From a virus, in IMG/VR virus record IMGVR_UViG_3300025435_000073, positions 1 through 26,618 of that record: 26,618 nucleotides of DNA; one strand, written 5' to 3'. Shown in pieces: positions 6,205 through 26,618 of the stretch. The position numbers were made by a program, and so were the translations under genes. The notes under the pieces are model-generated. The model saw nothing but the letters and a program-made list of their open reading frames with translations. It was not told where the DNA came from and did no database searches. Position 1 is the first letter of the stretch; each line of letters opens with the position of its first letter.

Positions 6205-6506
6205 CAGCAAAATATTCACCTTCTAGTCCTTGGTATAAGACTCCTATATTAAATAATTCTCTAGATTTATGGGCTCCTAGGACCATACCTGCAAGAGATG
6301 ATGATTTTGAATATACTATATTACCTCAATACAACTATAGACCAGATCTATTAGCATTTGATATCTATGGAAATCCAAAACTATGGTGGGTTTTTATGCA
6401 GAGAAACAAGGATGTTATATTTGATCCTATATTTGATTTTAGGGCAGGAACTACTATCAAGTTACCTAAGAAGTCTGCATTATTATCGGCATTAGGAGTA
6501 AGTTAA
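6201..6506 (+). CDS. 53: Baseplate wedge protein gp53-like
   Basis: A 101-aa protein of the gp53 wedge family, which in T4 joins the wedge during baseplate assembly. The core LLAFDIYGNPKLWWVFMQRN followed by DPIFDFRAGTTIKLP has the family's D-x-YG-x-x-x-LWW ... G-x-x-I-x-LP pattern, a LysM-like arrangement. The ATG at 6201 is preferred over an in-frame TTG at 6195, because it overlaps the previous stop as ATGA, the coupling also used by gp47/gp46. It is about half the length of T4 gp53 (196 aa), keeping only the conserved domain. Confidence 0.82.
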   Translation: MTAKYSPSSPWYKTPILNNSLDLWAPRTIPARDDDFEYTILPQYNYRPDLLAFDIYGNPKLWWVFMQRNKDVIFDPIFDFRAGTTIKLPKKSALLSALGVS

Positions 6507-8744: not shown

Positions 8745-11700
8745 ATGGCAAGAACATCTGAACACGATCTCTCTTCATTAAGGATAGACCCGGGTCCGCA
8801 TATTGGTAAGATCGTTAGCAATGTTGATCCCCATAGGCAAGGTGCGGTACAGGTAGAATTATTAGGAAATATTGGTAATCAAAGAGGCGCAGATCAACAG
8901 GTATTTACTGTTAGATATGCTAGCCCTAGTTTTGGTTCTACGGATGTAGAACATGATGCAACGAATGCTGATGATCATCACTCATCGCAACAGAGTCACG
9001 GATTTTGGTCACCTCCTCCTAATACAGGATCTATGGTATTATGTGTTTTTGTTGGAGGAGATCCGGGACAAGGATATTACTTTAGCAGCATACAAGATCA
9101 ACATATGAATCAAAGTGTACCAGGAATAGCTTCAACTAAAAATACAAAGAAGCAATACAAATCTTATAATCCTGATACCGGAGATTGGTCTAAAACGACA
9201 GATACTAGTAGCCTCACTGATCAGGGTTCACAGCTTCCAGTAAGTGAGATAAATCGTCCGGCAGCCAAAGGTGTACAACCTGACACAAATAAAATGGAAA
9301 AACCTGTAAATAGTGCTAGGGTTAGCCAATTAGCAGAACAAGGACTTATAGATGATCCCTATAGAGGCACTCATACTAGCAGTGCTAGGAGAGAAAGTCC
9401 AAGCAATGTACACGGTTGGAGTACTCCCGGACCGTTAGACAAGACGCCAGGAGCTCCTACAAGATCAGTAGGACCTAGAGACACACAAGTAACTAAACAT
9501 ACATCTCGCCGCCCAGGGCATTCATTTATCATGGATGATGGCGATGAATCAAATCTCAGAAAGAGCAAAGCCGGCGAAGGACCTGCAGAATATGTTAATC
9601 TACAAAACGGCGAAACTGGCGGCGATGTATCGGTACCAAAAGATCAACAGATAAGGATAACCGCCGCTAATGGTGCACAATTTATAATGCACTGTGCAGA
9701 AGATTTCATACACATACATAATTCTAAAGGTACTGCCTGGATCGAAATGACCAGCAATGGCAAGATAGATATCTATACAGCAGATTGTGTTAGTGTACAT
9801 ACTGAAGCAGATTATAATATCACATCTGATAGAGACGTAAACATACACGCAGGCCGTGCTATCAATCTCTATGCAGATCATGATATCAATGCACATTCTA
9901 AATCAGAGATGCATATCAAAAGTGATTCTAATATAGCTATGAGTGCTAGTACTCACATCGCAGTAAATGCCGAAGGTGGTGATATCACCCTAATGTCAGA
10001 TGGTACAGCTAATATGACATCAGGTGATATAAGATTAGATTCTAGGAATATAGATGTTATGGCGCATGGTCATATACATTTAACTAGCAGCGGTAATACT
10101 GAGATTAGGGCAGAAAGCATCGCAGCAAGTGCTAGTATTGATATAGATATTTTAGCAGCCGGTACTATAAATCAAACATCTGCTACACAGCAGCTCAAGA
10201 CTTATTCGGCTTTCATATTGAAATCCGATGGCACGATAGATCAAAGATCAGATGGGCCTTTCAGTACTTCAGGAAGCGACATGGCTATGACATCAGATGG
10301 ACCACTTGCTGTTACTGGCGGGGGTACTATAAACATACAAGGCGGACCAAATGTCTTGCTCAACAGTGGTCCGGGCAGGAAAAAAGGTTCGACTACAGTA
10401 GCTACTGATCCATATAATGCCAGTTTAGATGCTGCTGCTACTTCTCCTATATCTGCTGGAGCAGCTAGGCAGGCAAATGAAGCTATGGGACGTAAACCAC
10501 ACCCAGCTAAGATCACAGCCGATCCAATCACCCACGCGATACACACTAATTATGGTAGGGCTATCACTAGCAGAGTACCATTGGATCACGGATCTTTCAA
10601 AGGATTTGAAAATTTTAATCCTCCGGGACATACACAGGATCTAACAGATAGACACAACTCTGATCAGCCGTATGCTAAAGGAGAAGAACGTCGACAGATA
10701 TCTAACAATGATGATCTAGAAAATATACCAAACGGAACACGCAAGCCCAGCCCGAATGTTTCGGGTGCAAGACGAAATCCCTATCCACATCACCCGTCTC
10801 CCAAAGGCGATCCTAGCAGCAATGTTGTTAGTCAAGAAAGCCAAATCAGTGATAGGAACACACCTAGTGATTGGGTACAAGATCAGGAATTTATGGGAGA
10901 TGTAGCAAAACTATCAGGTAAGCTAGGTATAACTGTAGCTGAACTGCTGTCTATATTTGCTGCAGAAACAGGAACTGCTAGCCTAGATCCATCAAAATCA
11001 AACGGTGATGGCTGCGTTGGTTTGGTACAGATCTGTAAGCAAACTAATCCGAAAACAGGAAAAACCAACTTTGATGAGCTCGCTGCACGTAGTCCAAAAG
11101 AAGCTGCAGAAGATCTAATATCTCCTGAAGGTATGAGGAAGTTGACTAGACATAGGCAGATGTTTTGGATAGAAAAGTATTTTGATCTTATATTACCCGG
11201 CGGTGCTGGTATCTTTCCAAAAGAAGATAGAGCTGTTTACATATGGTTAGCATTGGCTGCGGGAACAGATTCTAGCAAGCTCATTACTAAAAAAACTATC
11301 TATCCTTTCGCAGATACGAGATGCAAGCAGAACAAAGGTTGGCAAGATCCCACGCAGAATAATGACTGCACGGTCAAAAAAGCAGGTACATGGTTGCGTT
11401 GGTATGAGAAACAGTTTATAGCTCCTAAACTAGGAGCCAAAAGCTACAGCCCAGATCTATCATCTGGTCCGGGATCAACTATACAGCCAGGACCGGCAGC
11501 AAGCGCTCCGCCTCCAGGAAATTCATCAAGCAACTGGCCGGCCAGCACACAGAACGCACAGATGCCATCAGATCCACCAGGCGTACCAAATAGCACACGT
11601 TGGGCTTGGTATAATGGCAAATACATTGCCGTCGATGCTACAGGAACTCCAGTTGATTCTTCAGGAAATCAGGTCAGCCCAGATGCAGCATATTCAAAAC

Positions 11701-11807
11701 CACAAGTACTAGATAAACCTTCCGCTCCACCGGAATCGACCGGGGGATTGCCTGCTACACAGATGGCAGGAGGAAATCCTGATGGATCAGAGATTTTAAC
11801 AGCATAA
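8745..11807 (+). CDS. 5: gp5-like baseplate hub spike with C-terminal lytic domain
   Basis: A 1020-aa cell-puncturing spike. Residues about 14-115 form an OB-fold (HIGKIVSNVDPHRQGAVQVE, WSPPPNTGSMVLCVFVGGD). Residues about 290-547 are a repetitive beta-helix needle of VgrG/gp5 type, with short alternating repeats such as IDIYTADCVSVHTEADYNIT and DVNIHAGRAINLYADHDINA. A Pro/Asn-rich linker leads to a lytic domain at about 715-910: LLSIFAAETGT with a candidate catalytic Glu (E741), then GDGCVGLVQI, resembling goose-lysozyme/SLT transglycosylases. The tail (about 910-1020) is Pro/Ser-rich with WAWYNGKYIAVD. T4 gp5 (575 aa) places its lysozyme between OB-fold and helix; here the order differs and the fold appears different. 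The start has AAAGGTGA upstream. Confidence 0.88.
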   Translation: MARTSEHDLSSLRIDPGPHIGKIVSNVDPHRQGAVQVELLGNIGNQRGADQQVFTVRYASPSFGSTDVEHDATNADDHHSSQQSHGFWSPPPNTGSMVLCVFVGGDPGQGYYFSSIQDQHMNQSVPGIASTKNTKKQYKSYNPDTGDWSKTTDTSSLTDQGSQLPVSEINRPAAKGVQPDTNKMEKPVNSARVSQLAEQGLIDDPYRGTHTSSARRESPSNVHGWSTPGPLDKTPGAPTRSVGPRDTQVTKHTSRRPGHSFIMDDGDESNLRKSKAGEGPAEYVNLQNGETGGDVSVPKDQQIRITAANGAQFIMHCAEDFIHIHNSKGTAWIEMTSNGKIDIYTADCVSVHTEADYNITSDRDVNIHAGRAINLYADHDINAHSKSEMHIKSDSNIAMSASTHIAVNAEGGDITLMSDGTANMTSGDIRLDSRNIDVMAHGHIHLTSSGNTEIRAESIAASASIDIDILAAGTINQTSATQQLKTYSAFILKSDGTIDQRSDGPFSTSGSDMAMTSDGPLAVTGGGTINIQGGPNVLLNSGPGRKKGSTTVATDPYNASLDAAATSPISAGAARQANEAMGRKPHPAKITADPITHAIHTNYGRAITSRVPLDHGSFKGFENFNPPGHTQDLTDRHNSDQPYAKGEERRQISNNDDLENIPNGTRKPSPNVSGARRNPYPHHPSPKGDPSSNVVSQESQISDRNTPSDWVQDQEFMGDVAKLSGKLGITVAELLSIFAAETGTASLDPSKSNGDGCVGLVQICKQTNPKTGKTNFDELAARSPKEAAEDLISPEGMRKLTRHRQMFWIEKYFDLILPGGAGIFPKEDRAVYIWLALAAGTDSSKLITKKTIYPFADTRCKQNKGWQDPTQNNDCTVKKAGTWLRWYEKQFIAPKLGAKSYSPDLSSGPGSTIQPGPAASAPPPGNSSSNWPASTQNAQMPSDPPGVPNSTRWAWYNGKYIAVDATGTPVDSSGNQVSPDAAYSKPQVLDKPSAPPESTGGLPATQMAGGNPDGSEILTA

Positions 11808-11827: not shown

Positions 11828-12268
11828 ATGGCGGTACAAGGTTATAACAATCTAGTTGTAGGAAATGCAAATGCAGATCCTTATTACAAAAATTATCAAC
11901 CTAAGTCCTATAAAGGATTTAGTACTGTTAGCCCTATAGCCAAAAATGGTTCGTTGTATGATCTAGAATTGATCAAACAGGATCTAATTAACGCCTTCCA
12001 TATAAAGAAAGGTGAAAAATTAGAGAATCCTACCTACGGAACTATTATATGGGATATGTTATTTGAACCCTTAACTGATCAATTGAAAAAGATAATAACC
12101 AACGATGTTAACAGTATCATTAACAGCGATCCTAGGGTTAAAGTAGTAAAAAGTGTTATTACACAAGTAGATAAAGGTATACAATTAGAATTTACACTAG
12201 TGTACGTTCCCTATAATATCCAACAGAGTATGCAATTTACGTTCGATCAAAAAAACGGTTTGATTTAA
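11828..12268 (+). CDS. 25: Baseplate wedge protein gp25
   Basis: A 146-aa protein of the gp25/TssE-like wedge family that sits near the tail tube and helps start sheath assembly. It shows the family core: YDLELIKQDLINAFHIKKGE, NPTYGTIIWDMLFEPL, IINSDPRVKVVKS (the DPR/EPR-type motif) and IQLEFTLVYVPYN. T4 gp25 is 132 aa. An AGGGG ribosome binding site lies just upstream. It is placed between the hub spike and gp6, matching its structural partners, since gp25 contacts the gp6 core bundle in T4. Despite the older name, nothing here suggests lysozyme activity. Confidence 0.9.
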   Translation: MAVQGYNNLVVGNANADPYYKNYQPKSYKGFSTVSPIAKNGSLYDLELIKQDLINAFHIKKGEKLENPTYGTIIWDMLFEPLTDQLKKIITNDVNSIINSDPRVKVVKSVITQVDKGIQLEFTLVYVPYNIQQSMQFTFDQKNGLI

Positions 12269-12321: not shown

Positions 12322-15300
12322 ATGTCAGTAACTAACCGCCAGAATACACTATTTGCAGCTGAAGATTGGTCTAAGATCTATCAGACATTTACCAACGCCG
12401 ATTTTACCAGCTATGATTTTGAAAATATACGTAGGGTGATGATAACCTATCTTAGGGAGAATTTTCCTGAGAGTTTTAATGACTATATCGAGTCTAGCGA
12501 ATATCTAGCACTGATAGATCTCATAGCATTTTTTGGACAGAGTCTCGCTTATCGCTTGGATTTCAATGCGAGAGAAAACTTTTTAGAACTAGCAGAGCGC
12601 CGTGAAAGCATACTGAGATTGGCTAATATGATTAGCTACAATACCAGCAGGACTGTTTCTGCTAGCGGATTTTTAAAAATACAGAGTCTAACCACAACAG
12701 AAAATATAATCGATTCTAATGGCATAGGATTAGGAAATGTGCAGGTATCTTGGAATGATGGGTCTAACATTAATTGGTTTGATCAATTCACTAAGATAAT
12801 GAATTCTGCGTTTATAGATAACGTAGCATTTGGTAATCCATTATCTAGTGCTACTATAGACGGATTATATACTGAACAATATAAGATAAACAGCTATATC
12901 ACCGATGTTCCCGTATTTCCTTTTAGCGCAACAGTTAACGGAAACGGTTACAATTTTGAAGCGGTAAGCACTGTGATAGCTTATGATCCTAACTCTCAAA
13001 CCAATGTAGTGAGAGAAGATGTTCCGCAAAGAGGAAACCAGCTTTCTCTGATCTACACAGATGACGGACAGGGTTATGGTAGTGTTAATACTGGATTTTA
13101 TCTTCACTTTAAGCAGGGAACATTAGCACAGAATTCTTTCACTATAAACAATCCTGTTAGCAATCAGATAATCAATGTAGCAGCAACTAACATTAATAAC
13201 ACCGACGTTTGGTTGTATCAATTAGACAAGAATAATTTAGAATCTAAAGCTAATATATGGACACAAGTTCCTACGATTAACGGAAACAATGTGATCTACA
13301 ACAGCATTGATAAGACTGTAAAAAATATCTATTTTGTGCAGACCACTGCTAATGATAGCATTAGTTTAAATTTTGCTGACGGTGTTTTTGGTAATTTGCC
13401 AAAGGGCACTTTTAGGATCTATTACAGGACCAGCAATGGATTAACTTACACTATCCATCCTGCAGATCTATCTACAGTTATAGTAAATGTACCCTATGTT
13501 TCCAAATCAAACACACTAGAAACTCTCAAATTAATATTGGCTTTAGAAACATCCGTAACTAATGCTGCATCCACAGAAACAAATACACAGATAAAACAAA
13601 ATGCTCCATCTGTTTATTATACACAAAACAGGATGATAACAGGAGAAGATTATAATCTAGCTCCATTAAATGTTAGCCAAAATATCGCTAAAATTAAATC
13701 AATCAACCGTACTTCTAGCGGAATAAGCAGGAATTTCGATCTCATTGATTCTAGCGGAACATACAGCAGCACTAGTATTTTCTGTACTGACGGTATCATC
13801 TATCGACAGGACATACTCAATTCTTTTAAATTTACATTCAACAGCACTACTGATATCCAAGAAACTATACTTAATCGCATACAGCCCTTAACATCTCAGA
13901 TTTCTATGAGAGATTTTTATTATTCAAAATATAATAAGATAATTCTAAGTGATATAAATGCGATTTTTTATCAGATCACATCAGGTTATAATCAAAGCAA
14001 TGGTTATATAGGAAACAGTAATGATAAATCGCCGCTGGCTGTTATCTATACCGGCACCGCGCTAAAATATGTACAGCCCGGCGCTTTGATAAAATTTATC
14101 CCACCAGCTGGTAGTTATTTTACTACTAATGGAACACTGACTACTACTCCAGGTCCTAATACTACAGATAGGATATGGGCCAATGTTGTTTCTGTATCAG
14201 GTAATGGCACAGGCGTAAACAATAGCGGCAGGGTAAATTCTAGTGCTAATAGTTTAGGTACTATAACACTTGGACAAACAGTTCCAAATGGCGCTATATT
14301 GAATCAAATAATACCTGTGTTCTTAAATTATCTAACTGCTGATACACAGAGTGTAATGAACAATTTGATTTTTAATTATAGATTTTTTGGTTTAAGATAT
14401 GATGTTATCACAGCATCTTGGCAGATAATACAGGATAGGAATTTGAATTTACTATCTCCTTGGAGCACTGGATATGCAGGAGATAATACGGGTCAAAAAC
14501 TAGACAGCAGTTGGTTGATTTCTTTTGAAACAGATGGTTCTAATTATACAGTATCTTATAGGGGATTAAATTATTTCTTTGAATCTGTGTTAGAAAATCG
14601 TTTCTATTTTGATAACACAAGGAAGATATACGATACCGTGTCTGGATCTATACAGAAAGACAAGATATCAGTATTAAAAATCAATACTAAACCTGATTCT
14701 AATTCACCACTTTCTACTGATTATCCTTGGCAGATCGTGGGAAATGTTACGCAAAATAATGGATATTCCAGCACTAAGGTAGTGCAGGTATCATTTTTTG
14801 ATTCTAATGATGATGGTATACCAAATAATCCTGATGCTTTTGATATCATCGTTAATCCTCCAGTCTTAACTAACGATTCATTAACTAATAATAATTTTGT
14901 ATTTTTTGAAAAATATATAACTGACAATTACACAGAAGATTTTAGATATGTCAGTAATGACAATAATATGTTTTTAATTTTTGCTTCTCAGAATCATATT
15001 TCTAATCTAGGACAATATACTGACGGACAGCTGTTTTATTTTTATTCGTCTGATATAATTAAAAAATATGATGCTGCTAGCAGCAGATTAGTAGTCACGC
15101 AGAGCTATTTTGCTGCTGCTGGTAGGACTGGATTGTATTTCCATTATCTACATAATGCCGATTCTACGACAAGGATTGATCCTAGTTCAACTAATATAAT
15201 TGATGTATTCTTATTAACAAAAGATTATGATGTACAATATAGAAATTGGCTGATAGGCAACACAGATATACAACCACTTCCTCCGACCAGTACTAGTCTA

Positions 15301-15801
15301 CTAACTACTTACGGAGCATCTTTGAATGCTATAAAAAGTATCAGCGATGAAGTTATATACCATCCTGTTAGCTACAAAGTATTGTTTGGAAATAAAGCAG
15401 ATATTAGATTACAGGCACAGTTCTTGGTGATAAAAAACACTGAACAGGTGATAACAGATAACAATGCTAAAGCCAAGATAATACAGACTATCAACCAATT
15501 TTTTGCGCTAGGTAATTTTAATTTTGGAGATACTTTTTATTTTACGGAATTAAGCGCATATGTAATGAATCAGCTAACCCCTTACATAACTTCGTTTGTA
15601 ATAGTTCCATTAGCCAGCAATCAATCCTACGGTAGTTTGCAGGAACTTACATCAGATCCAAACGAAATATTTGTTAGCGGAGCCACTGTTGACAACATTA
15701 CTATAGTAGATTCTATAACAGCAACTAATCTTAAATCCACGGGATATGTATTAACTACATCTACCTTTGATGTAAATTCAACGAACCTAAAAAGCGGATA
15801 A
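12322..15801 (+). CDS. 6: Baseplate wedge protein gp6-like, enlarged
   Basis: A 1159-aa wedge protein of the gp6/baseplate J type; the gp6 dimer forms the inner baseplate ring in T4. The N-terminus has typical gp6 features: FENIRRVMITYLRENFPESF, then LIDLIAFFGQSLAYRLDFNA and ARENFLELAERRESI (about residues 35-105). The C-terminus (VIYHPVSYKVLFGNKADIRL, then FFALGNFNFGDTFYFTELS) is also gp6-like. T4 gp6 is 660 aa; the extra ~500 residues lie mostly between about 430 and 960 as beta-rich, Asn/Ser-rich sequence. Within it DSNDDGIPNNPD (about residue 826) has the D-x-N-x-DG spacing of a calcium-binding loop. The ribosome binding site is weak. A late-type promoter box precedes it. Confidence 0.88.
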   Translation: MSVTNRQNTLFAAEDWSKIYQTFTNADFTSYDFENIRRVMITYLRENFPESFNDYIESSEYLALIDLIAFFGQSLAYRLDFNARENFLELAERRESILRLANMISYNTSRTVSASGFLKIQSLTTTENIIDSNGIGLGNVQVSWNDGSNINWFDQFTKIMNSAFIDNVAFGNPLSSATIDGLYTEQYKINSYITDVPVFPFSATVNGNGYNFEAVSTVIAYDPNSQTNVVREDVPQRGNQLSLIYTDDGQGYGSVNTGFYLHFKQGTLAQNSFTINNPVSNQIINVAATNINNTDVWLYQLDKNNLESKANIWTQVPTINGNNVIYNSIDKTVKNIYFVQTTANDSISLNFADGVFGNLPKGTFRIYYRTSNGLTYTIHPADLSTVIVNVPYVSKSNTLETLKLILALETSVTNAASTETNTQIKQNAPSVYYTQNRMITGEDYNLAPLNVSQNIAKIKSINRTSSGISRNFDLIDSSGTYSSTSIFCTDGIIYRQDILNSFKFTFNSTTDIQETILNRIQPLTSQISMRDFYYSKYNKIILSDINAIFYQITSGYNQSNGYIGNSNDKSPLAVIYTGTALKYVQPGALIKFIPPAGSYFTTNGTLTTTPGPNTTDRIWANVVSVSGNGTGVNNSGRVNSSANSLGTITLGQTVPNGAILNQIIPVFLNYLTADTQSVMNNLIFNYRFFGLRYDVITASWQIIQDRNLNLLSPWSTGYAGDNTGQKLDSSWLISFETDGSNYTVSYRGLNYFFESVLENRFYFDNTRKIYDTVSGSIQKDKISVLKINTKPDSNSPLSTDYPWQIVGNVTQNNGYSSTKVVQVSFFDSNDDGIPNNPDAFDIIVNPPVLTNDSLTNNNFVFFEKYITDNYTEDFRYVSNDNNMFLIFASQNHISNLGQYTDGQLFYFYSSDIIKKYDAASSRLVVTQSYFAAAGRTGLYFHYLHNADSTTRIDPSSTNIIDVFLLTKDYDVQYRNWLIGNTDIQPLPPTSTSLLTTYGASLNAIKSISDEVIYHPVSYKVLFGNKADIRLQAQFLVIKNTEQVITDNNAKAKIIQTINQFFALGNFNFGDTFYFTELSAYVMNQLTPYITSFVIVPLASNQSYGSLQELTSDPNEIFVSGATVDNITIVDSITATNLKSTGYVLTTSTFDVNSTNLKSG

Positions 15802-15820: not shown

Positions 15821-18800
15821 ATGGCAAGTAATGACGAATATCCATTACCAGTAACTATAGACGATCAAAACAAAAGGCAGTCTTCTAGGCATTTGCCTAG
15901 GTTTTTCCGTACTGAGCAGAATGAAAAATTCTTATCTGGAGTGCTTGATCCTCTCCTACAACCTGGAAAATTAAACAGGGTCAACGGATATGTTGGTCGT
16001 AAAGATATACCTAATTTTAATATCAGCGACAACTATCAATCTGATGTTACAACTATGCGTCAGTATTATCAGCTAGAGCCAGGATTTGTATATCAAGATC
16101 CTGCTACAGGAGAACCGACTTGGTTTGCTGATTATTTAGATTATATGAACAGTTTGGCATTTTATGGAGCAAATACAGCTAACCATGCCAAACTTAATAC
16201 AGAAGAAGCCTATGCTTGGGATCCAAGCATTGATCTAGATAAATTTGTTAATTTTAGAGAATATTATTGGTTACCAAGCGGTCCAAATCCAATAACCATT
16301 TTCGGACATCAGATAGCTACTACTAGCACATTTACTATCACTACTATAAATGAAGGTGATAGGATAGATTATCTGTTTACTCCTGATGGACTAACTGCTA
16401 ATCCTAGATTGACTTTGTATAGAGGCAATACCTATACATTCAAAATTAATGCTAAAAATAAACCTTTTTCTATAAAGACACAGCCAATAACCGGAAATAG
16501 TTATCTTTATAACACTGGTGTTTCTAGACAAAATATAGACATCGGAACTATTACTTTTACTGTGCCTTACGAAGCACCCGATTTGCTTTATTATATAGAT
16601 AATAATGATGCTAATTCTCAGGGATTTATAGATATACGAGATATAGATCAAGATACAGAATTAGATGTAGAAAAAGAAATATTAGGTAAGATAAACTATA
16701 CTAGCACTTCTGGTATCTCTTTTATCAATGGTTTGAAATTAAAATTTATTGGAAATATTACACCGGTAAAATATGCTACTGGTACTTGGTATGTTGAAGG
16801 TGTTGGAACAGCGATAAGGTTGATAAGTTTTGATGATTTAGAATCAACTCCCCTAACTAATGATCCAACTGATTTGCCATTTGATTTGCAGCCATTTGAT
16901 ACCGTACCTTTTGACAATGCAAATAACTATCCAACCGCAAAAGAGTATCTGGTTATTAATAGAGGCAGCAGAGATCGCAATCCTTGGACTAGGAACAATA
17001 GATGGTTTCACATAAGTGTTATAGAAACTTCAGCACTAGCCAATAATCAAATTGCTTCTCCTGATCAGACCACACGAGCACAAAGGCCGATCATAGAATT
17101 TTTACCAGATATAAAATTACATCAGTTTGGATGGATAGCTAAAAAAGATGTGGATCTCATAGATACTACTACTAAGACTGTTTTTAGGACTATTGAAGGT
17201 AGTTTGGGATATTATGTAGATGGCGAACCGCTATTACCTGGACAACGTGTATTATTTACAGCAGACACAGACCCACTAGTTAACGGAAAGATTTATACAG
17301 TTAGCACTATAGTAGTTAATACTACTAGAATAAAATTCTTATCAGCAGCGTGTACGTTAGTTACACCTTATCAAGTTACATTTACTTTTGATGAATTAAT
17401 CGCAGCACCACCTATAAATGTAGGATATACTGTTGAAGGGAATAGCAATGCGAACTATAGCGGTCTATATAATGCTATATCTAGCACTACTTCTAGCATA
17501 ACACTAATATATCCACAGAATCCTGGAATTTTTGGAAACGGAATCACTACCGGTGTTTATGATAATTTTGGACGCCGCCCTCAGCTAACTCTCATACCAG
17601 CGGTAGACAGCGATCCTAACGAAGGAGAAGTTGTATATTCAAAGGGCGGAGTTAATAATAAGGGATCTTCTTTTTACTACGACGGTACTGTTTGGCAAAA
17701 GGCACAACAAAAGACAGCAATTAATCAAGCTCCTCTCTTTGATCTCTTTGACAAGAATTCTATTAGTTTTTCTGACAAAACAGTGTATACAAACACATCA
17801 TTTTCTGGAAATAGGATTTTTGGATATAGGATAGGACTTGGTGCAGCAGACACTGAACTAGGTTTTCCTCTATATTATCGTTCTATAGACAACGTAGGAG
17901 ATATTGAGTTTGAGTTTGATCTAGAAAATACCGATTGGAACTATGTAGATGGGTCTGCTCTAGCTACTGTATATTCTTATCAGGGATTTTTGAGGAAGTA
18001 CGATCTAAACGGTTCTTTTAGCTTTTTAAATGGATGGACTGCTACATATCGAAACCTATACCAAAAGGCAGTTAGGATATTAGAAGTTACACAAGCAACT
18101 GATCTAATAGCTATTGATATCTTTAATAATAGTGCAAATCTTTCAGATATAAATGCACAAGTTTATGTTAATAATATCAAGAGAAACGATATCTCCAGGA
18201 CCAACATTAATGGAGTAGCTTATATTAAATTTGCTAACGGATTATCAGTTGGAGATCAAGTCGTATACAAGATACAAACAACAGCTGAAAAAAATGCTAG
18301 AGGATATTATGAAGTACCCTACAATTGGCAAAATAATCCATTTAATGAAACTCTAGGGTATTTTACCCTAGGCGAAGCTGTTGATCACGTCAAGACTATT
18401 GTGGAAAATAATCCAAGATTTTCGGGAAATTTTCCAGGAACAAGTAATCTATCTACGATCGGTAATCTAGCAAAATATGGACATCGTTTTTTACAACACG
18501 CCGGATCATTTCCACTAGCTGCATATCTTATCACCGATAAGAGAAATAATGTAGTAGATGCATTGAAATGGACTGCAACTCAATACACACAATTTAAGAA
18601 AGAATTCTTACGTATAGCAGGTGTTTCTGCTTTTGAAGGTACTATATCTGAGAGAGTAGATCAGATATTATCTGAATTTTCAAAATCAAAATATCTAGAC
18701 AAATCTGCTTTTTATTTTTCAGATATGGCTCCGTGTAAAGGATTTACACAGAGGAACTATATCGTACAGGACACAAGATTACCAGTATTTGTCATTGATA

Positions 18801-21800
18801 GCATTTTCAATCCTCAGTCACAGACTAGGAGAAGTGTGCTAATTTATGTTAATGATGTACAGTTAACATATCTGATAGATTATAATTTTAGCACAACTGA
18901 TGCATTTGTCAACATATCTTTTCCATTAAATATTAATGATACTGTAACTATTAAAGATTATGCTAGTACAAATGGATCATATATACCCTATACTCCATCT
19001 AAGCTAGGAATTTATCCTAGCTATGCACCTAGAATTTATATCGACGATACCTATATAACACCAGTAAAAGTTATACAAGGACACGACGGCAGCATAACAT
19101 TAGCCTATAATGATTATAGAGATAACCTAATATTAGAAATAGAAAAGAGGATTTATAATACTAGGCGCATAGCCTATAATGATAACATTTTTAATATGAG
19201 AGATGTTATTGGCGGATATTTTAGAAGCAGTTTTGTTAGCGCATTCTTTACAAAAAATGATATTGATAATATATTACTACCTGATTTTCTAAAATGGAAT
19301 TCTCTAATCAATCAGGATTATAATAGCAATTATTATTACGAAGATGGAGTTAGCTTTACCTATAATTACAGCAATTCTTTCGCACCAGATGGCGCTACAC
19401 CGTTACCAGGTTATTGGCGTGCAATATATCAGTATATGTATGATACTGATAGGCCACATAGCCATCCTTGGGAAATGCAAGGTTTTACTGTTAAGCCAGC
19501 CTGGTGGGATACGGTTTACGGACCAGCACCCTACACTAGCGAAAACAAAGTAATGTGGATAGCTATCGAACGAGGTATAATCAACACTCCCGGGTATAGG
19601 AGGACTGATTCTAGATACGCACGTTCCGGATTAACAAATTATCTACCAGTTGATGATCAGGGAAATTTATTAAGTCCTTTAGATAGTAACTTGATAAAAG
19701 ATTTTTCTCTAGTCAACGCCAAGGGAATATATTCATTCGGTGACGGTGCACCAGTTGAAGCTGCTTGGCGCCGCTCAAGTGAGTTTCCTTTTAGTATAGT
19801 AAAGGCTATGTGTGTATTATGCGGTAGCGATTATATTGGTAAAATGTGGGATAGATTTACTATAAAAAGGAACCTAGCAGGCCAGATCTATAATGCCAAT
19901 ACCGGAAAAAGATTCAATACAGCTGATATTGTCTATCCAAACACACCATTAGGTGATGCAAACGATCCAAATGTAGCTAGATCTATGAGCAACGGATTGG
20001 CCAATATCATAGATGATTATGTATTTTCTCTCAATGCAGTTAGTTTAGACACTTACAAAAACGTTATAAGCGGGTTAGACAGCAAACTAAGTCATAGATT
20101 AGGTGCTTATACAAGCAAAGATAAACTTAATGTTCTCTTAGATAGCCGCAGTCCTACTGCTAGTGGAACGGTATTTTTACCACAAGACAACTACCATGTG
20201 TTCTACAATCAAAGTTCTCCTGTAGCAAGTGTTGTTTATAGCGGAGTTTTAATCGAAAAATTAAACTTCCAAGGTACTCAAGCCAACCAGATGTCAGGAG
20301 ATTATCTGTATACGGCTCCACCTATTGGTTATAAAGTAAGCGGATATGATAAGAAATACGGTATATTCCAGATATTACCACCATTAAAATTAAAAAATGA
20401 TCCAACCTTTAATATAGGTGGCGTTACAGAACCGTTTGCCGAATGGACACCTAATCAATTTTACAACCAAGGATTTATTGTTAAAACAAACAATCGTTAT
20501 TATAGGGCGATAGTTGCTAATACTTCTTCTGGTAATTTTGCTTTAGATGCTGCAAAATGGGCTTCTTTAAGCAGCCTACCTATTACTGGTGGTGTTACGG
20601 CGATAAACAGGACAAAATTTTCGGATACTACTAAAACTATACCTTATGGAACTATACTACCTGATATACAGTCTGTAGTTGATTTCTTGTTAGGATATCA
20701 AGAAAAATTAAAATCAAATGGATTTAAATTTGATCAATTTAATAAAGATTTAGGTGTAACTTTAGATTGGTTAACAAGTGCTAAAGAATTTATGTTTTGG
20801 TCTCTGCAAAACTGGAATTCCGGTGCTATCATAACATTAAGTCCTAGTGCTACATACCTACAATTTAATCCAACTATTACTGCATCTATTGATGATTTTA
20901 GTTCTTCAGCGTTTGAATACAGCATATTAAAAGCTGACGGAACACCATTTAAATTAAATCTAATTGACATCCATAGGATAGATAATGGATTTACAGCTAG
21001 TCCAAATAACTCTGGAGACGGAATTTATTTTGTTAGAGCAAATCTAATACAGAGAGAACACGTATTATTATTAGATAACATATCTGATTTTAACGATACA
21101 GTCTATGACAAAGTAAGCGGTTATCGACAGGGCAGAGTAAAGCTAATTGGTTTTAAAACAGGAAACTGGGATGGAGGATATACTACACCCGGATTTATGT
21201 ATGATGCTGCTACAATAATCACTTGGCAACCATTTGTAGATTACAATCTAGGCGATATTGTAAGTTATAAAAATAACAACTATGTAGCTATTACCAATGT
21301 GCCCGGATCTAGTGATTTCAAATACAAGGATTGGAAACAGCAAACCAAGACATTACCAGCAGGTCTAATGGCCAATTGGGATTATAGAGTAGAGCAGTTC
21401 CGAGATTTCTATAATTTAGATGCTAGTATTTTTGATGATAATCAAAAGAAATTAGCTAGACATCTAATAGGTTATCAGGATAGACCTTATCTCGATAATA
21501 TAATAATAGATGATGTAGCACAGTTTAAGTTTTATCAAGGATTCATACGAGAAAAAGGCACGTTCAATAGCATAACTAAGCTATTCGATGTGCTAAGATC
21601 GAGTGGATTTAGTACTGTTAATCTATACGAAGATTGGGCATTTAAGGTCGGTGACTATGGTGCATCTGATGCATACACTGAAATAGAATTTCCATTGGAT
21701 GAATCACAATTCCGTCATAATCCACAAGACGTAGTATTAACCATTAATCCTGAATACCAAACAGATTTAACAATTTACAATGTTTCTTCTTCTATGGTCA

Positions 21801-24800
21801 CTATAAAACCATCTGACTATACAGCTACACCATTTCCGACGACAGCTATAGACAGCAGTCAAAAAAATTATGGTATATTTAAATATCAAGTTGCTGGATA
21901 TGTACGATCTGATGATGTAGAACACATAATTTATAATAGGGCAGCCTTATTAAATTATGATATAACACAGTTCCGTAATGGAGATAAGATTTGGTTAGCT
22001 TACACTGAGAATAATGATTGGGATGTTTTAGAATATATCAAATTAGATTTAACTGTTACTACTTGGACAGTTGATTTTGTTACTAATTCGCACATCTACC
22101 TATATTGCGATACTACATTAGATCTTGCTAGAGGTGATGTTATATCGCTATCAAATCTAGATCTAATAGACGGATCATATATAATACAATCTGTAAGCAA
22201 TAATATTATCACTATCTATTCACTGCTTACATTAGCTACTATACCAAATATAGTAACTAGTGGTGTTATACATAGATTAGCTTCTGTTAGATACAAAGAT
22301 CTAAATTCTGTATCTGATAAGATATACAATAAATTTGATATTTCCGGTGAAAAATTATGGATAGATAGTGATTTATCCGGTAATTGGCTGGTTTTAGAAA
22401 ACACAAATGCCTTCTTTAGCTCAGATAAAAAATCAAAAGAAGACGAAATAATACCATATACTAAAGTTGATGGTCAGCAAAATGGATATGAAATAAAGAT
22501 AAGCGGTAATGGATTGTATATGATAGTTAGCTCACCATTCAATGGAAGAGGAACTGTGGTCATATATAAGAGGCCAAACAATCTAAGCCAATGGGCATAC
22601 GCACAGATTCTAAAAATTCCAGCAGACTTTATAGATACTATTTCGAATGATCAATTTGGTATAAGCCTTGAGATTTCATATGATGGGCAGATGATATTAG
22701 TCGGTGCACCGTATGCATCAAATTTACGAAGCTTCTATAAAGGTGTATTTGATCTGTATACTCTATATAATATAGGCGATATAGTAAAATATAGCGATGG
22801 CACAAATGAATTTTTCTATAAAGCAAAAGTACGTGTTCCAGGAAATGGTTCTTCTTTCTTATATCAAAATTGGGACCTGCATAACATATATCTAGGAGAT
22901 CCGGGAGGATATCAGTCGACACTTAGCAATCAGGGTGTGGTTTTTGTTTTTGAATATGATCGTCTCTATACTAACAAGTTTTTAGAAAAAGTAGTATTGG
23001 CATCTAGTGATCCGGTAGCTAACGAGCATTTTGGTTATAAGATGAAAATGGTATCAGATCCAGTTTCAAATGATACTGTACTTTTTGTTTCTGCTAAGGA
23101 TTATAGTTATGATATCTTTAACAAAATCACAACTTCTAGTAGCACAAAATCTACAACATTACATTTTGCAAATACTACCAATATATTAATTGGGCAAGAA
23201 ATATTTGGAATTATAGATCCAGTAACAGGCACTGCGGTAAATGTTAAAGTTGTTAGCGTTAATCAAAATGGCACAACGATCACTGTTGATCAATATGTAA
23301 CGGTATCGTCTAGCCAAACACTCACATTTTCTCTAAATGCTATAGGTAGAGTGCAGGTACTACGTTACAATACTACAGATGGTTGGAGATATAATTATAT
23401 AAATCCTTTCGTAAAATTACCAACAGTTCCGGGAAATTTTCCGCCTAGCAGTTTCAGTATTTCAAGTAATTCTCAATACGGATATGATCTAGATTGTCTA
23501 TCTGATCTCAGTATAGTTGCTATATCTGCACCCGGATCTGGAGCAGGAATAGTATATGTTTTTAAGATAGAATCTCAAACTTATTCAAGCGTTGTTTCGC
23601 AACTGAATGGATTAGGATTTATTTCTTTTGGATTGTTTGAAGTATTAAGTTCGGAAACACTAACTAACGGTAGCTTACTCAACACAGTCGGAGGTTATAT
23701 AACAGAAGGTGATGCATTTGGTTATAAAGTAATATTAAGCGGTAATTCGCTAATAGTAACAGCTCCAAATAATAATTCAAGAGGAAATCACGTAGGTGCT
23801 ATCTTCAATTTCCAAATGTTATCTTCAAATTCTCAGATTAGCTCCGCAAAATATCAACTACAACAGGTAATCATACCTCCGGTTACTAATACCTATGCTT
23901 ACGAGAGATTTGGAACAAGTTTATCTATAGATCCAAAAGGAAATATACTCAGCATAGGTGCTCATGGTGGACCTTCTGTATTAGACACTACATTTGATTC
24001 CTATGCCAGTGCTTTATATCAGAATTATTCTTTTGATTTAACTGAAGTCACTGGTATAAACGGTACAGGACCATATTATGTAGATTTTAATATATTACCA
24101 CAACTAGCAGCTCCTGCTGTTGATCTCTATTATACTATATCAGGAAATGATAACGGAAATTATAATGGAGTTTTCCTAGCAACAAAGAGTAGCGAAACAG
24201 CTATAACATTTGAATTTTTAGATTTTCCTGGACAGTTTAGCACAGGCACAACTGTAGCAGTTGATACTGATTTAAAATATATATTAGATCCTAATAGTGA
24301 AACAATAACTCCTACTACTTTTGACAACAATTCAACTAAATTCTACGATCAGATAGCATTTACTGGAGCAGTTTACGTTTACAACAGATTTGATAACAAT
24401 TTTATCTATGCAGATAGGATAACTCCAACAAATAATCTTAAAGCTCAAGATAATTTTGGTTTTAGTTTATTCACATCATCTAATTGCATCGTTGTAGGAA
24501 CACCCAATAGAGCATTTGCAGGTGCTGTTTATGGATCTGTTTTTGTCTTTAATTATACAAACACTAGCTGGAAAATATTACGATCAGCAACACCGCTAGT
24601 AGATGTTAATAAATTTAAAAAATCTTTTTATTATAACACTAAAACTAACAAATTGATCGGAAATCTAGATCTATATGATCCAGCTAAGGGAAGGATACCC
24701 GGAATAGCTGATCAAGAAATTAAGTATCAAACTTACTATGATCCAGCAGTTTATCAATATAATGGTAATACTTCTTTAGCTATCAATGCCGACCAAACTT

Positions 24801-26618
24801 GGACAGATGCACATATTGGTGAGATTTGGTGGGATCTTTCTACTATAAAATATACTTGGTATGAACAAGGTGACGTAACATATCGTAATCTCCAATGGGG
24901 ACAACTATTTCCAGGATCGATAGTCAATATATATGAATGGGTTGAATCAAAATATCTACCTAGCAAATATGCAACTTTGGCTGATACTACAGCAGGAATT
25001 GCCGCAGGAATAAGCGGTATTCCTAAAGATACATCTGACACCACATATAGCACAAAAACAAAATATGATAAAACTAGTGGAATAGTCACTACTTTATATT
25101 ATTTTTGGGTAAGCAACAGGAAAATAATTCCTTCTTTTAAGGGCAGGAACCTAAGTGCCAGTGATATAACTAAACTTATTGCTGATCCTAAAAGCCAAGG
25201 ATATGAGTTTGTTAGTATGACAAGCGAAAGCAGTCTTTCCTTAATAAACATTAAACCAAAATTAATAGGAACTAATATTTCTCTTAATTTCCAATTTTAT
25301 AAAATTGAAAATAGAGATTTAGCAGTACATAGAGAATATGCATTAATTGCTAAAGGAGACAGAGATTCGGTCATTCCGTCGATACTAGAAAACAAATGGT
25401 TTGATAGTTTGATAGGATTAGATATAGCTGGTAATCCCGTACCGGATACTAATTTAAGTATAAGGCAGAGATATGGAAATTCCAACAATCCAAGGCAATC
25501 TTGGTTTGTAAACAGGAACGAAGCACTAAAGCAATATATAGAATATGTTAATTCTGTATTAATATCATATAATTTATTAGATGAGGTTAACCTAACTAAT
25601 TTACAAAAAGAAGAATTAGCGCCATCTATACTATCCGGAGAAATAGATCTAATCGTTAATACGATAGAAGATCTAGCATATATAGGTACGAGTTCGTTGC
25701 GTACAGCACAGTTGTCATTAGCTATATCTAATGGACAAGTTATAGATGTTTATGTGATTGATTCGGGATTTGGTTACGGCAAAAATAAAATATATCAGAC
25801 TGATATATACGGTAATCCGATACTATGGTACGGTCCTACAGTAGAAATAACTGGTACTGGAACCGGAGCAAAAGTACAGCTTTACGTAGATGCTTATGGC
25901 AGTGTTGACGCCTACGGAACAGCGGAGGTTGTTAAGGGAGGAAGTGGATATGATAATGATATTAGTTCTACAGGAACTTCTATCTCTACGATAGCAACTG
26001 TTAGAGATTTTACAGTATTAGTAACATCAGATTCAGAAGCACTAGGTAGCTGGAGTATACATACTTGGTCATTCATAAGTTCTGTTGCTGCACAAACTTA
26101 CGCAGCAGCGGCACAAAATAGCTTTGCTCAGTTAGCACAAAATGCATTAAAACAGTGGACAAGGATTAAAACACAATCATATAATGTTAAAAGATACTGG
26201 TCTTTCGTTGATTGGTATGCTACTGGGTATACTGCACAATCGGACGTTAAACACATTATTAATCATACTAGTGACCTGGGTGGAACTAAGATAGATATAG
26301 GTGACCTAGTAAAAGTAACCAACGCCGGATTAGGAAATTGGCTGTTGCTATTGAGAGTTGCTGTAACCAACAATCCGGATTTTACTGTAGATTATCATGT
26401 AGTAGGTCAACAAAATGCTACTATACAATTTTCAACGGCGCTATACAATTATAACAACCAAGTTGGATATGATAAAATTTACAGTTATGACCTAGATCTT
26501 TATGATTCTAATCCTAGCCTAGAACTAAGGATAATATTAGAATCTATCAGGGATGACATATTTGTTAAGAATTTAAAGATTAATTACAATACTCTCTTCT
26601 TTAATAACGTACATTATG
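15821..26618 (+). CDS. Giant modular virion protein, right end outside window
   Basis: An uninterrupted frame of at least 3599 codons starting at ATG 15821 (GGAG 12 bases upstream), with no stop before the window edge; I translated it through and found no frameshift. The N-terminus HLPRFFRTEQNEKFLSGVLD and blocks NRGSRDRNPWTRNNRWFH (about 385), HPWEMQGFTVKPAWW (about 1215) and AAWRRSSEFPFSIVKAM (about 1312) look conserved with giant structural proteins of marine T4-like phages. Modules: cupredoxin-like segment (about 188-276), three CBM5/12-like segments (about 1536-1584, 1800-1841, 2311-2354), FG-GAP-like blades (about 2220-2920), GSGY-type repeats (about 3305-3386), then helical sequence. 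Sitting after gp6, where T4 has gp7-gp12, it may replace peripheral wedge or fibre proteins; that role is inference. Host-surface binding is suggested by the modules. Confidence 0.88.
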   Translation, partial: MASNDEYPLPVTIDDQNKRQSSRHLPRFFRTEQNEKFLSGVLDPLLQPGKLNRVNGYVGRKDIPNFNISDNYQSDVTTMRQYYQLEPGFVYQDPATGEPTWFADYLDYMNSLAFYGANTANHAKLNTEEAYAWDPSIDLDKFVNFREYYWLPSGPNPITIFGHQIATTSTFTITTINEGDRIDYLFTPDGLTANPRLTLYRGNTYTFKINAKNKPFSIKTQPITGNSYLYNTGVSRQNIDIGTITFTVPYEAPDLLYYIDNNDANSQGFIDIRDIDQDTELDVEKEILGKINYTSTSGISFINGLKLKFIGNITPVKYATGTWYVEGVGTAIRLISFDDLESTPLTNDPTDLPFDLQPFDTVPFDNANNYPTAKEYLVINRGSRDRNPWTRNNRWFHISVIETSALANNQIASPDQTTRAQRPIIEFLPDIKLHQFGWIAKKDVDLIDTTTKTVFRTIEGSLGYYVDGEPLLPGQRVLFTADTDPLVNGKIYTVSTIVVNTTRIKFLSAACTLVTPYQVTFTFDELIAAPPINVGYTVEGNSNANYSGLYNAISSTTSSITLIYPQNPGIFGNGITTGVYDNFGRRPQLTLIPAVDSDPNEGEVVYSKGGVNNKGSSFYYDGTVWQKAQQKTAINQAPLFDLFDKNSISFSDKTVYTNTSFSGNRIFGYRIGLGAADTELGFPLYYRSIDNVGDIEFEFDLENTDWNYVDGSALATVYSYQGFLRKYDLNGSFSFLNGWTATYRNLYQKAVRILEVTQATDLIAIDIFNNSANLSDINAQVYVNNIKRNDISRTNINGVAYIKFANGLSVGDQVVYKIQTTAEKNARGYYEVPYNWQNNPFNETLGYFTLGEAVDHVKTIVENNPRFSGNFPGTSNLSTIGNLAKYGHRFLQHAGSFPLAAYLITDKRNNVVDALKWTATQYTQFKKEFLRIAGVSAFEGTISERVDQILSEFSKSKYLDKSAFYFSDMAPCKGFTQRNYIVQDTRLPVFVIDSIFNPQSQTRRSVLIYVNDVQLTYLIDYNFSTTDAFVNISFPLNINDTVTIKDYASTNGSYIPYTPSKLGIYPSYAPRIYIDDTYITPVKVIQGHDGSITLAYNDYRDNLILEIEKRIYNTRRIAYNDNIFNMRDVIGGYFRSSFVSAFFTKNDIDNILLPDFLKWNSLINQDYNSNYYYEDGVSFTYNYSNSFAPDGATPLPGYWRAIYQYMYDTDRPHSHPWEMQGFTVKPAWWDTVYGPAPYTSENKVMWIAIERGIINTPGYRRTDSRYARSGLTNYLPVDDQGNLLSPLDSNLIKDFSLVNAKGIYSFGDGAPVEAAWRRSSEFPFSIVKAMCVLCGSDYIGKMWDRFTIKRNLAGQIYNANTGKRFNTADIVYPNTPLGDANDPNVARSMSNGLANIIDDYVFSLNAVSLDTYKNVISGLDSKLSHRLGAYTSKDKLNVLLDSRSPTASGTVFLPQDNYHVFYNQSSPVASVVYSGVLIEKLNFQGTQANQMSGDYLYTAPPIGYKVSGYDKKYGIFQILPPLKLKNDPTFNIGGVTEPFAEWTPNQFYNQGFIVKTNNRYYRAIVANTSSGNFALDAAKWASLSSLPITGGVTAINRTKFSDTTKTIPYGTILPDIQSVVDFLLGYQEKLKSNGFKFDQFNKDLGVTLDWLTSAKEFMFWSLQNWNSGAIITLSPSATYLQFNPTITASIDDFSSSAFEYSILKADGTPFKLNLIDIHRIDNGFTASPNNSGDGIYFVRANLIQREHVLLLDNISDFNDTVYDKVSGYRQGRVKLIGFKTGNWDGGYTTPGFMYDAATIITWQPFVDYNLGDIVSYKNNNYVAITNVPGSSDFKYKDWKQQTKTLPAGLMANWDYRVEQFRDFYNLDASIFDDNQKKLARHLIGYQDRPYLDNIIIDDVAQFKFYQGFIREKGTFNSITKLFDVLRSSGFSTVNLYEDWAFKVGDYGASDAYTEIEFPLDESQFRHNPQDVVLTINPEYQTDLTIYNVSSSMVTIKPSDYTATPFPTTAIDSSQKNYGIFKYQVAGYVRSDDVEHIIYNRAALLNYDITQFRNGDKIWLAYTENNDWDVLEYIKLDLTVTTWTVDFVTNSHIYLYCDTTLDLARGDVISLSNLDLIDGSYIIQSVSNNIITIYSLLTLATIPNIVTSGVIHRLASVRYKDLNSVSDKIYNKFDISGEKLWIDSDLSGNWLVLENTNAFFSSDKKSKEDEIIPYTKVDGQQNGYEIKISGNGLYMIVSSPFNGRGTVVIYKRPNNLSQWAYAQILKIPADFIDTISNDQFGISLEISYDGQMILVGAPYASNLRSFYKGVFDLYTLYNIGDIVKYSDGTNEFFYKAKVRVPGNGSSFLYQNWDLHNIYLGDPGGYQSTLSNQGVVFVFEYDRLYTNKFLEKVVLASSDPVANEHFGYKMKMVSDPVSNDTVLFVSAKDYSYDIFNKITTSSSTKSTTLHFANTTNILIGQEIFGIIDPVTGTAVNVKVVSVNQNGTTITVDQYVTVSSSQTLTFSLNAIGRVQVLRYNTTDGWRYNYINPFVKLPTVPGNFPPSSFSISSNSQYGYDLDCLSDLSIVAISAPGSGAGIVYVFKIESQTYSSVVSQLNGLGFISFGLFEVLSSETLTNGSLLNTVGGYITEGDAFGYKVILSGNSLIVTAPNNNSRGNHVGAIFNFQMLSSNSQISSAKYQLQQVIIPPVTNTYAYERFGTSLSIDPKGNILSIGAHGGPSVLDTTFDSYASALYQNYSFDLTEVTGINGTGPYYVDFNILPQLAAPAVDLYYTISGNDNGNYNGVFLATKSSETAITFEFLDFPGQFSTGTTVAVDTDLKYILDPNSETITPTTFDNNSTKFYDQIAFTGAVYVYNRFDNNFIYADRITPTNNLKAQDNFGFSLFTSSNCIVVGTPNRAFAGAVYGSVFVFNYTNTSWKILRSATPLVDVNKFKKSFYYNTKTNKLIGNLDLYDPAKGRIPGIADQEIKYQTYYDPAVYQYNGNTSLAINADQTWTDAHIGEIWWDLSTIKYTWYEQGDVTYRNLQWGQLFPGSIVNIYEWVESKYLPSKYATLADTTAGIAAGISGIPKDTSDTTYSTKTKYDKTSGIVTTLYYFWVSNRKIIPSFKGRNLSASDITKLIADPKSQGYEFVSMTSESSLSLINIKPKLIGTNISLNFQFYKIENRDLAVHREYALIAKGDRDSVIPSILENKWFDSLIGLDIAGNPVPDTNLSIRQRYGNSNNPRQSWFVNRNEALKQYIEYVNSVLISYNLLDEVNLTNLQKEELAPSILSGEIDLIVNTIEDLAYIGTSSLRTAQLSLAISNGQVIDVYVIDSGFGYGKNKIYQTDIYGNPILWYGPTVEITGTGTGAKVQLYVDAYGSVDAYGTAEVVKGGSGYDNDISSTGTSISTIATVRDFTVLVTSDSEALGSWSIHTWSFISSVAAQTYAAAAQNSFAQLAQNALKQWTRIKTQSYNVKRYWSFVDWYATGYTAQSDVKHIINHTSDLGGTKIDIGDLVKVTNAGLGNWLLLLRVAVTNNPDFTVDYHVVGQQNATIQFSTALYNYNNQVGYDKIYSYDLDLYDSNPSLELRIILESIRDDIFVKNLKINYNTLFFNNVHY
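16382..16650 (+). other. Cupredoxin-like domain segment within the giant protein
   Basis: Codes for residues about 188-276. The pattern PRLTLYRGNTYTFKINAKNK, then PFSIKT, ITFTVPYEAPDLLYY and a final GFIDI matches the edge and core strands of the cupredoxin-like beta-barrel common in marine phage and bacterial surface proteins. In copper-binding versions the strand after the first block carries His (HPF) and the last turn carries Cys/His; here these are KPF and YYIDNNDANSQG, so the metal site looks lost. Domain call is by pattern only. Confidence 0.5.
20428..20573 (+). other. CBM5/12-like module 1 in the giant protein
   Basis: Codes for residues about 1536-1584. EWTPNQFYNQGFIVKTNNRY, then YRAIVAN and DAAKWASL follow the chitin-binding type 3/CBM5-12 layout: W at the first strand, Y-x-x-G-x-x-V, N-x-x-YY-x-A, and a closing K/D-W. 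Confidence 0.5.
21218..21343 (+). other. CBM5/12-like module 2 in the giant protein
   Basis: Codes for residues about 1800-1841. TWQPFVDYNLGDIVSYKNNN, YVAITNVPGSS and YKDWKQ give a clean W ... Y-x-x-GD-x-V-x-Y-x-x-x-x-Y-x-A/V ... D-W pattern typical of small carbohydrate-binding modules. It is the best match of the three. Confidence 0.55.
22478..24580 (+). repeat. Array of FG-GAP/integrin-like propeller repeats in the giant protein
   Basis: About seven degenerate repeats of the type FG-x-S/K-[hydrophobic] ... [hydrophobic]3-GAP/SSP ... GA/GV-[VI]-YVF. Examples: NGYEIKISGNGLYMIVSSPF (22478 on), DQFGISLEISYDGQMILVGA (22646 on), EHFGYKMKMVSD (23014 on), QYGYDLDCLSDLSIVAISAP (23471 on), DAFGYKVILSGNSLIVTAPN (23711 on), ERFGTSLSIDPKGNILSIGA (23906 on) and DNFGFSLFTSSNCIVVGTPN (24449 on). 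Integrin-alpha-type beta-propellers have seven such blades. A third CBM5/12-like module (22751-22881, YNIGDIVKYSDGTNEFFYKA and YQNWDL) is inserted between blades two and three. Confidence 0.65.
25735..25980 (+). repeat. GSGY-type beta repeat segment in the giant protein
   Basis: Codes for residues about 3305-3386. Two copies of a motif of the form G-x-[IV]-x-x-V-x-V-x-x-x-G-x-GY are seen: GQVIDVYVIDSGFGYGKNKI and GTAEVVKGGSGYDND, joined by VEITGTGTGAKVQLYVDAYG. This motif recurs in marine phage structural proteins as short beta-rich linkers; the role here is unknown. Confidence 0.5.

Follow-up and report, generated by a model that had tools for sequence, protein, structure and literature searches.

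A giant protein encoded directly after gp6 in T4-related jumbo phages is probably a greatly enlarged gp7-type baseplate wedge initiator

The window analysed here is a stretch of 26,618 bases that constitutes a whole virus record. Its last part is occupied by a giant open reading frame on the forward strand (15821..26617), of which 3,599 codons are seen. This gene probably specifies the wedge initiator (gp7 type) of a jumbo phage related to T4, in a form that inserted modules have greatly enlarged. Giants of this kind are already known in many jumbo phages, where they have been annotated without an assigned role (PMC5259590, PMC7247149, PMC11242549). The gp7 assignment is new, and no paper assigning the RaK2-type giant to gp7 was found in the literature searched.

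The frame starts with an ATG at 15821 and stays open to the last full codon, as the original prediction of one frame of more than 3599 codons without a stop to the window edge had it. Since the window is the whole virus record and ends inside the gene, the 3' end lies beyond it and the stop codon cannot be read. Several hundred more codons are expected, because complete homologues mostly measure 3,300-4,750 aa and the family alignment extends beyond the last residue of the window. In mononucleotide shuffles of the same stretch (n = 200), the longest open frame had a mean of 89 codons and a maximum of 158, and the remaining two forward frames over this stretch reach only 81 and 49 codons. A sequencing frameshift had been named as one finding that would refute this frame; such a frameshift, or an assembly artefact, is excluded by the many independent intact homologous frames, 64 of which are complete at both ends. 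The giant is a real, intact single gene, most likely for a tail-tip (baseplate) protein.

The giant is preceded by a T4-type baseplate module on the same strand, consisting of a gp5-like hub/lysozyme gene, gp25 and gp6. The predicted placement directly after gp6 holds: the giant starts 19 nt past the end of the gene for this baseplate wedge subunit (12322..15801, +; PHROG 10646 "baseplate wedge subunit", E = 1.5e-283). Further upstream are gp25, another wedge subunit (11828..12268, +; PHROG 261 and 43), the gp5-like hub/tail lysozyme protein (8745..11807, +; PHROG 13211, E 1e-29), a virion structural protein (6510..8726, +; PHROG 11190, E 1e-32) that occupies the same place in PA5oct and RaK2, and a probable gp53 wedge subunit (6195..6506, +), which is proposed from its position by comparison with RaK2 ORF080w and the gp53 of Vibrio phage 2.275. 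The complete order (sigma factor, structural protein, wedge subunit, structural protein, hub, gp25, gp6, giant) is nearly identical to that of PA5oct, RaK2 and PBECO4. The baseplate module is adjoined by gp46/gp47-like SbcC/SbcD genes and a late sigma factor on the opposite strand. Two adjoining ORFs resembling homing endonucleases (224-925 and 889-1335, - strand) lie beside the SbcC/SbcD genes, and in Atu_ph07 an endonuclease-like ORF of 237 aa, judged by eye, is found directly 3' of the giant gene (locus L002, 31459-32172). The hub protein of the window has 1,020 aa and, beyond its gp5-like part, weakly matches peptidase/hub PHROGs at aa ~704-816; its PA5oct counterpart has only 477 aa.

The giant has a significant full-length profile match, in five stretches, to PHROG 10938 "virion structural protein" (E = 5.3e-291), a family whose PHROG category, "head and packaging" and not tail, speaks against a wedge protein; NCBIfam gave no matches. 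The tblastn searches recovered homologues in RaK2-like jumbo phages and their relatives, with lengths of 3,326-4,555 aa in the RaK2-like group, among them RaK2 (3,326 aa), PBECO4 (3,333), Vibrio phage 2.275 (3,771), SCTP-2 (3,807), PA5oct (3,857), Atu_ph07 (4,449) and Phosso (4,555). XacN1 (3,313 aa, E 2e-38) and RAS14 (3,138 aa, E 8e-41) are distant members (A2 profile). A single scan of IMG/VR added 168 related stretches, and the 64 complete frames of all loci span 2,999-5,056 aa. The gene order is conserved as well: gp6 directly precedes the giant in RaK2, PBECO4, PA5oct, Atu_ph07, Phosso, GAP32, BF, XbC2, Hallingskeid, fENko, Vibrio phage 2.275, XacN1 and environmental contigs, most of these records carry a gp25-type gene ahead of gp6, and in SCTP-2 and RAS14, which are unannotated, the gene immediately ahead of the giant is large.

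The window virus is a metagenomic contig, and the idea that its giant is a virion protein is supported by homologues that were detected in virions by mass spectrometry. PA5oct gp355 was identified by ESI-MS/MS and fENko ENKO_265c by LC-MS/MS. CBB_236, which adjoins the gp6 gene CBB_237, yielded 21 virion peptides (PMC5259590), and phAPEC6 gp245 (381.88 kDa), which adjoins the baseplate wedge gene gp244, yielded 17 (PMC7247149). The giants of PHROG 10938 (RaK2 ORF070, CBB_236, PA5oct gp355, Atu_ph07 gp180) are homologous to the window protein over most of the frame and have a similar size and the same gene order. Nevertheless, the window giant is only 24-30% identical to the isolate proteins, has its own set of carbohydrate-binding modules (CBM) and bears an FG-GAP region, most of which seems to be missing from the RaK2-type proteins, to judge by their shorter length and the falling alignment occupancy.

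The relationship to gp7 was sought at the level of the gp7 core. T4 gp7, the baseplate wedge initiator, is also encoded directly after gp6, and its two core motifs appear to map in order onto the giant: the helical motif A (T4 gp7 ~645-690) at aa ~1600-1665 (20618..20815, +) and the KGT motif B, "FYQGFIREKGTFNSITKLF" (T4 gp7 ~725-758), at aa ~1884-1950 (21470..21670, +). Motif B is strongly conserved across the family. When the family alignment (4,291 columns) was cut into ~106 overlapping tiles and scanned without bias against the gp7 core, the seven best tiles fell at two sites only, in gp7 order (aa ~1600-1665 and aa ~1896-1935, "GFIREKGTFNSITKLF"), with scores of 21.2-22.4, against 17.1 for the next tile and a maximum of 18.2 for the reversed gp7 profile. 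Slices aligned with hhalign gave P = 2.9e-4 for the A-A pair (0/200 column shuffles reaching the real score) and P = 0.007 for the B-B pair (1/200), and the crossed pairs of A and B were not significant. Since these slices were picked after the motifs had been noticed, the tile scan is the less biased of the two tests.

The homology is at the detection limit, and the giant, with more than 3,599 aa, far exceeds T4 gp7 (1,032 aa). The full core-core comparison between giant and gp7 (P 0.03-0.05) is not significant alone, and the gp7-core HMM had its best E-value, 0.03, in PA5oct and did not report the window giant. The core site was not singled out by a full-length gp7 scan of the family, and no match was obtained from full-length family slices against full-length T4 gp7, from PDB sequences searched with a profile of the core or from a scan of viral contigs seeded with the Desulfovibrio phage gp7. 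Pfam returned only CBM5/12 and noise on 19 core slices. The AF2 model of the core (aa 1585-2110) has low confidence (mean pLDDT 55.8), and Foldseek related it mainly to chitin-binding domains and phage fibres, not to gp7. Taken from sequence comparison, a two-part gp7 core whose motifs A and B are split by an insertion of ~240 aa is moderately supported, and the giant is likely to be orthologous to gp7.

The giants that follow gp6 in cyanophages offer a parallel. In Bellamy, gp25 and gp6 are followed by a 4,067 aa protein annotated as "baseplate wedge initiator" and then by gp8; this giant matches T4 gp7 725-758 with 44% identity over 34 aa (BLAST E 6e-4). In syn9, gp25 and gp6 are followed by gp101, a 6,076 aa protein annotated as "virion structural protein, putative fiber" (loci L232/L233), which matches the gp7-core HMM with an hmmsearch E of 1.5e-38 in two halves (aa 8-108 and 616-761) lying ~500 aa apart. 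Since it carries a split gp7 core, gp101 is probably the gp7 of syn9. Both giants carry the gp7 core, which therefore appears to consist of two motifs that insertions can push far apart. The cyanophage giants share with the window giant their position after gp6, their giant size and a gp7 core split by insertions, the latter as proposed for the window. Nevertheless, their gp7 core is near the N-terminus and not at aa ~1600-1935, and gp8 is a separate gene in cyanophages whereas it was not found in the RaK2-like relatives. It has been reported that gp7 is absent from cyano- and pelagimyophages and apparently substituted by VrlC (PMC7029224). If the Bellamy and syn9 giants are the VrlC that was meant, the gp7 core that they carry suggests enlargement rather than substitution.

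Across 65 homologues, the giant consists of conserved stretches (aa 1-480, 600-1500, 1620-2100 and 2940-3300) interrupted by variable insertions. The expectation of a single multi-domain protein with at least four kinds of modules is borne out by cupredoxin, CBM5/12 and FG-GAP modules and by a weak gp10-like beta domain. The AF2 model of aa 1-1200 contains a cupredoxin-like beta sandwich (aa 184-301; 16370..16723, +), which Foldseek matched to copper nitrite reductase and CueO with E 2e-4. A Foldseek match of the same aa 1-1200 model to a portal-tail chain of cyanophage A4 was dismissed (probability 0.28, TM 0.06). A carbohydrate-binding module of the CBM5/12 type (Pfam PF02839) is present at aa 1541-1580 (20441..20560, +). 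A second CBM5/12-like module, at aa 1801-1843 (21221..21349, +), lies between both gp7 motifs and was also recovered by motif; on the slice, its Pfam CBM5/12 match (E 2e-4) is below the curated cut-off, and Foldseek related it to chitin-binding domains (E about 0.03-0.2). A third, recognised by a motif match, is found at aa 2311-2355 (22751..22885, +) within the FG-GAP region. This region (aa ~2160-2940; 22298..24640, +) matches Pfam FG-GAP_2 in three stretches (E 7e-12) and contains seven repeats of the FG-GAP motif, at aa 2221, 2279, 2404, 2553, 2633, 2697 and 2879, three of them found by HMM; it probably folds into a seven-bladed beta-propeller. It is followed by a block conserved across the family (aa 2941-3300; 24641..25720, +), with an occupancy of 0.85-0.95 over the 65 homologues and invariant residues.

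Some of these modules are also found elsewhere. Vibrio phage 2.275 gp6 (locus L012, 5046-8909) is annotated with a CBM5/12 domain, so the insertion of such modules is not confined to the giant. The cupredoxin copy of the window is devoid of copper ligands; 42 of 52 homologues retain H...C-x2-H-x2-M ("GHPF...YYQCGNHDAM"), a pattern that resembles type 1 copper sites. Homologous domains occur, for instance, at 10523-10912 of locus L019, and the same ligand residues are carried by Bellamy gene 29. Cupredoxin-like domains were found in 313 phage records, nearly all of them from cyanophages and often in baseplate or fibre proteins; no literature linking cupredoxin to phage baseplates was found in the papers searched.

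T4 has separate gp8-gp12 genes after gp7, and the giant had been proposed to replace the peripheral baseplate set gp7-gp12. Its location at the gp7 position agrees with this proposal; the persistence of separate fibre-like genes in most relatives does not. No gp7 core (PHROG 26741) outside the giant and no gp8 (PF09215) was found in the complete genomes of RaK2, PBECO4, GAP32, PA5oct and SCTP-2, with T4 and Bellamy positive as controls, so that the separate genes which would have spoken against the original prediction did not turn up in these five relatives. Elsewhere, PHROG 26741 matched only with its profile positions ~196-364, which are not the gp7 core, in giants and in further long frames on the largest contigs. 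Environmental contigs of up to 245 kb were searched as well, and gp8 (PF09215) was absent from the three largest; among all records searched, it turned up in T4 and Bellamy only.

Within the giant, the gp7-like part is the only one with a detectable T4 match in a consistent place. The gp8 fold is not detectable in the giant (best tile P 0.04). The beta domain at aa ~975-1050 (18743..18970, +) weakly resembles T4 gp10 aa 161-256 (tile score 30.3), with an uncorrected P of 0.0014 for the best of ~106 tiles and a two-sequence profile. Apart from weak stretches scattered over relatives, PHROG 958 (gp10) matched only a fibre-like domain at the C-terminus of PA5oct gp358, and tile scans of the giant for gp8, gp9, gp11 and gp12 gave no convincing site. 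PHROG 438 matches in the giants of Atu_ph07 and Phosso were rejected as gp8, since they cover profile positions ~186-300 only; they probably correspond to a shared inserted module.

In most relatives the giant is followed by a gene of ~200 aa (PHROG 11259) and then by fibre-like proteins with shared N-termini; it is the relatives outside the RaK2-like enterobacterial group that retain separate fibre-like genes downstream of the giant. The PHROG 11259 companion occurs once in each of the 12 giant-bearing records tested and is absent from T4 and Bellamy. It has no profile similarity to gp8-gp12 and is possibly an obligate partner of the giant. Examples of this gene after the giant are found at 23559-24305 of locus L019, 21420-22079 of L020 and 23886-24491 of L027.

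Several scenarios may explain the presence of a giant at this place. One of them, which follows the original prediction, is that a non-homologous protein took the place of gp7 and also does the work of gp8, gp10 and the short fibre. The missing gp7-core and gp8 matches outside the giant of the complete relatives, the weak gp10-like domain at aa 975-1050, the CBM and propeller modules, which could serve as binding parts, and the apparent substitution of gp7 by VrlC in cyano- and pelagimyophages (PMC7029224) would all be congruent with this scenario. Nevertheless, the motif sites match gp7 in order, the cyanophage giants at the equal position contain the gp7 core, and most relatives still carry fibre-like genes as separate units downstream, which makes a non-homologous replacement unlikely. 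An enlarged gp7 that took over some rim functions fits better than a fusion replacing gp7-gp12.

Alternatively, the giant could be a large protein of a tail fibre or whisker whose place beside gp6 is incidental, as might be suggested by its carbohydrate-binding modules, by the hair-like fibres of CBB and phAPEC6 (PMC5259590, PMC7247149) and by the "putative fiber" annotation of its positional counterpart in syn9. Yet it is always one gene in a fixed position after gp6, it is mostly conserved along its length and not repetitive, and fibre genes exist separately; in RaK2, which has the giant, the tail fibres have been assigned to gp526-534 (PMC10253068). A fibre or whisker is thus quite improbable. 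An assembly or sequencing artefact that fused several genes into one frame could be invoked only for the unusual length and because the contig ends inside the gene; its probability is negligible, as it is already refuted by the intact homologues from isolates and different contigs, and a second contig is 100% identical over the first 949 aa and near-invariant residues are spread along the frame.

In contractile systems including T4, each wedge forms when gp7 joins a gp6 dimer, and the hub is ringed by six of them. If the giant is an enlarged gp7, by analogy its core would pair with the gp6 dimer, together with gp25 and gp53, in each of the six wedges, and six copies would ring the tail tip, as in T4 and other contractile systems. 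The inserted or appended modules (CBM, cupredoxin and propeller) may project outward from the wedge rim, where they could touch surface glycans, as putative ligands, and dock fibres, tasks that belong to separate proteins in T4. Contact signals might be relayed from these modules via gp7-gp6 to the release of the sheath. The giants would vary in size, between about 3,000 aa and more than 5,200 aa, through the gain and loss of modules in loops that lie outside the core. A more specific and rather doubtful proposal is that a single chain of ~400-500 kDa, six per baseplate, unites the gp7 core with gp10-like docking, glycan-binding and an integrin-like propeller. In that case, one polypeptide would initiate the wedge, contact the receptor and signal contraction, and the baseplate would be built differently from the many-protein rim of T4.

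Few phage proteins are larger than the members of this family, which are common both in jumbo phages and in environmental viromes but carry no annotation beyond "virion structural protein". Should they indeed be enlarged gp7 proteins, the RaK2-like baseplate core (gp6, gp7, gp25 and gp53) would be complete and the missing gp7 would be explained. It would also follow that insertions into loops can expand a wedge core protein several-fold, and the RaK2-like phages would be testable models for baseplates that gain host-recognition parts without new genes.
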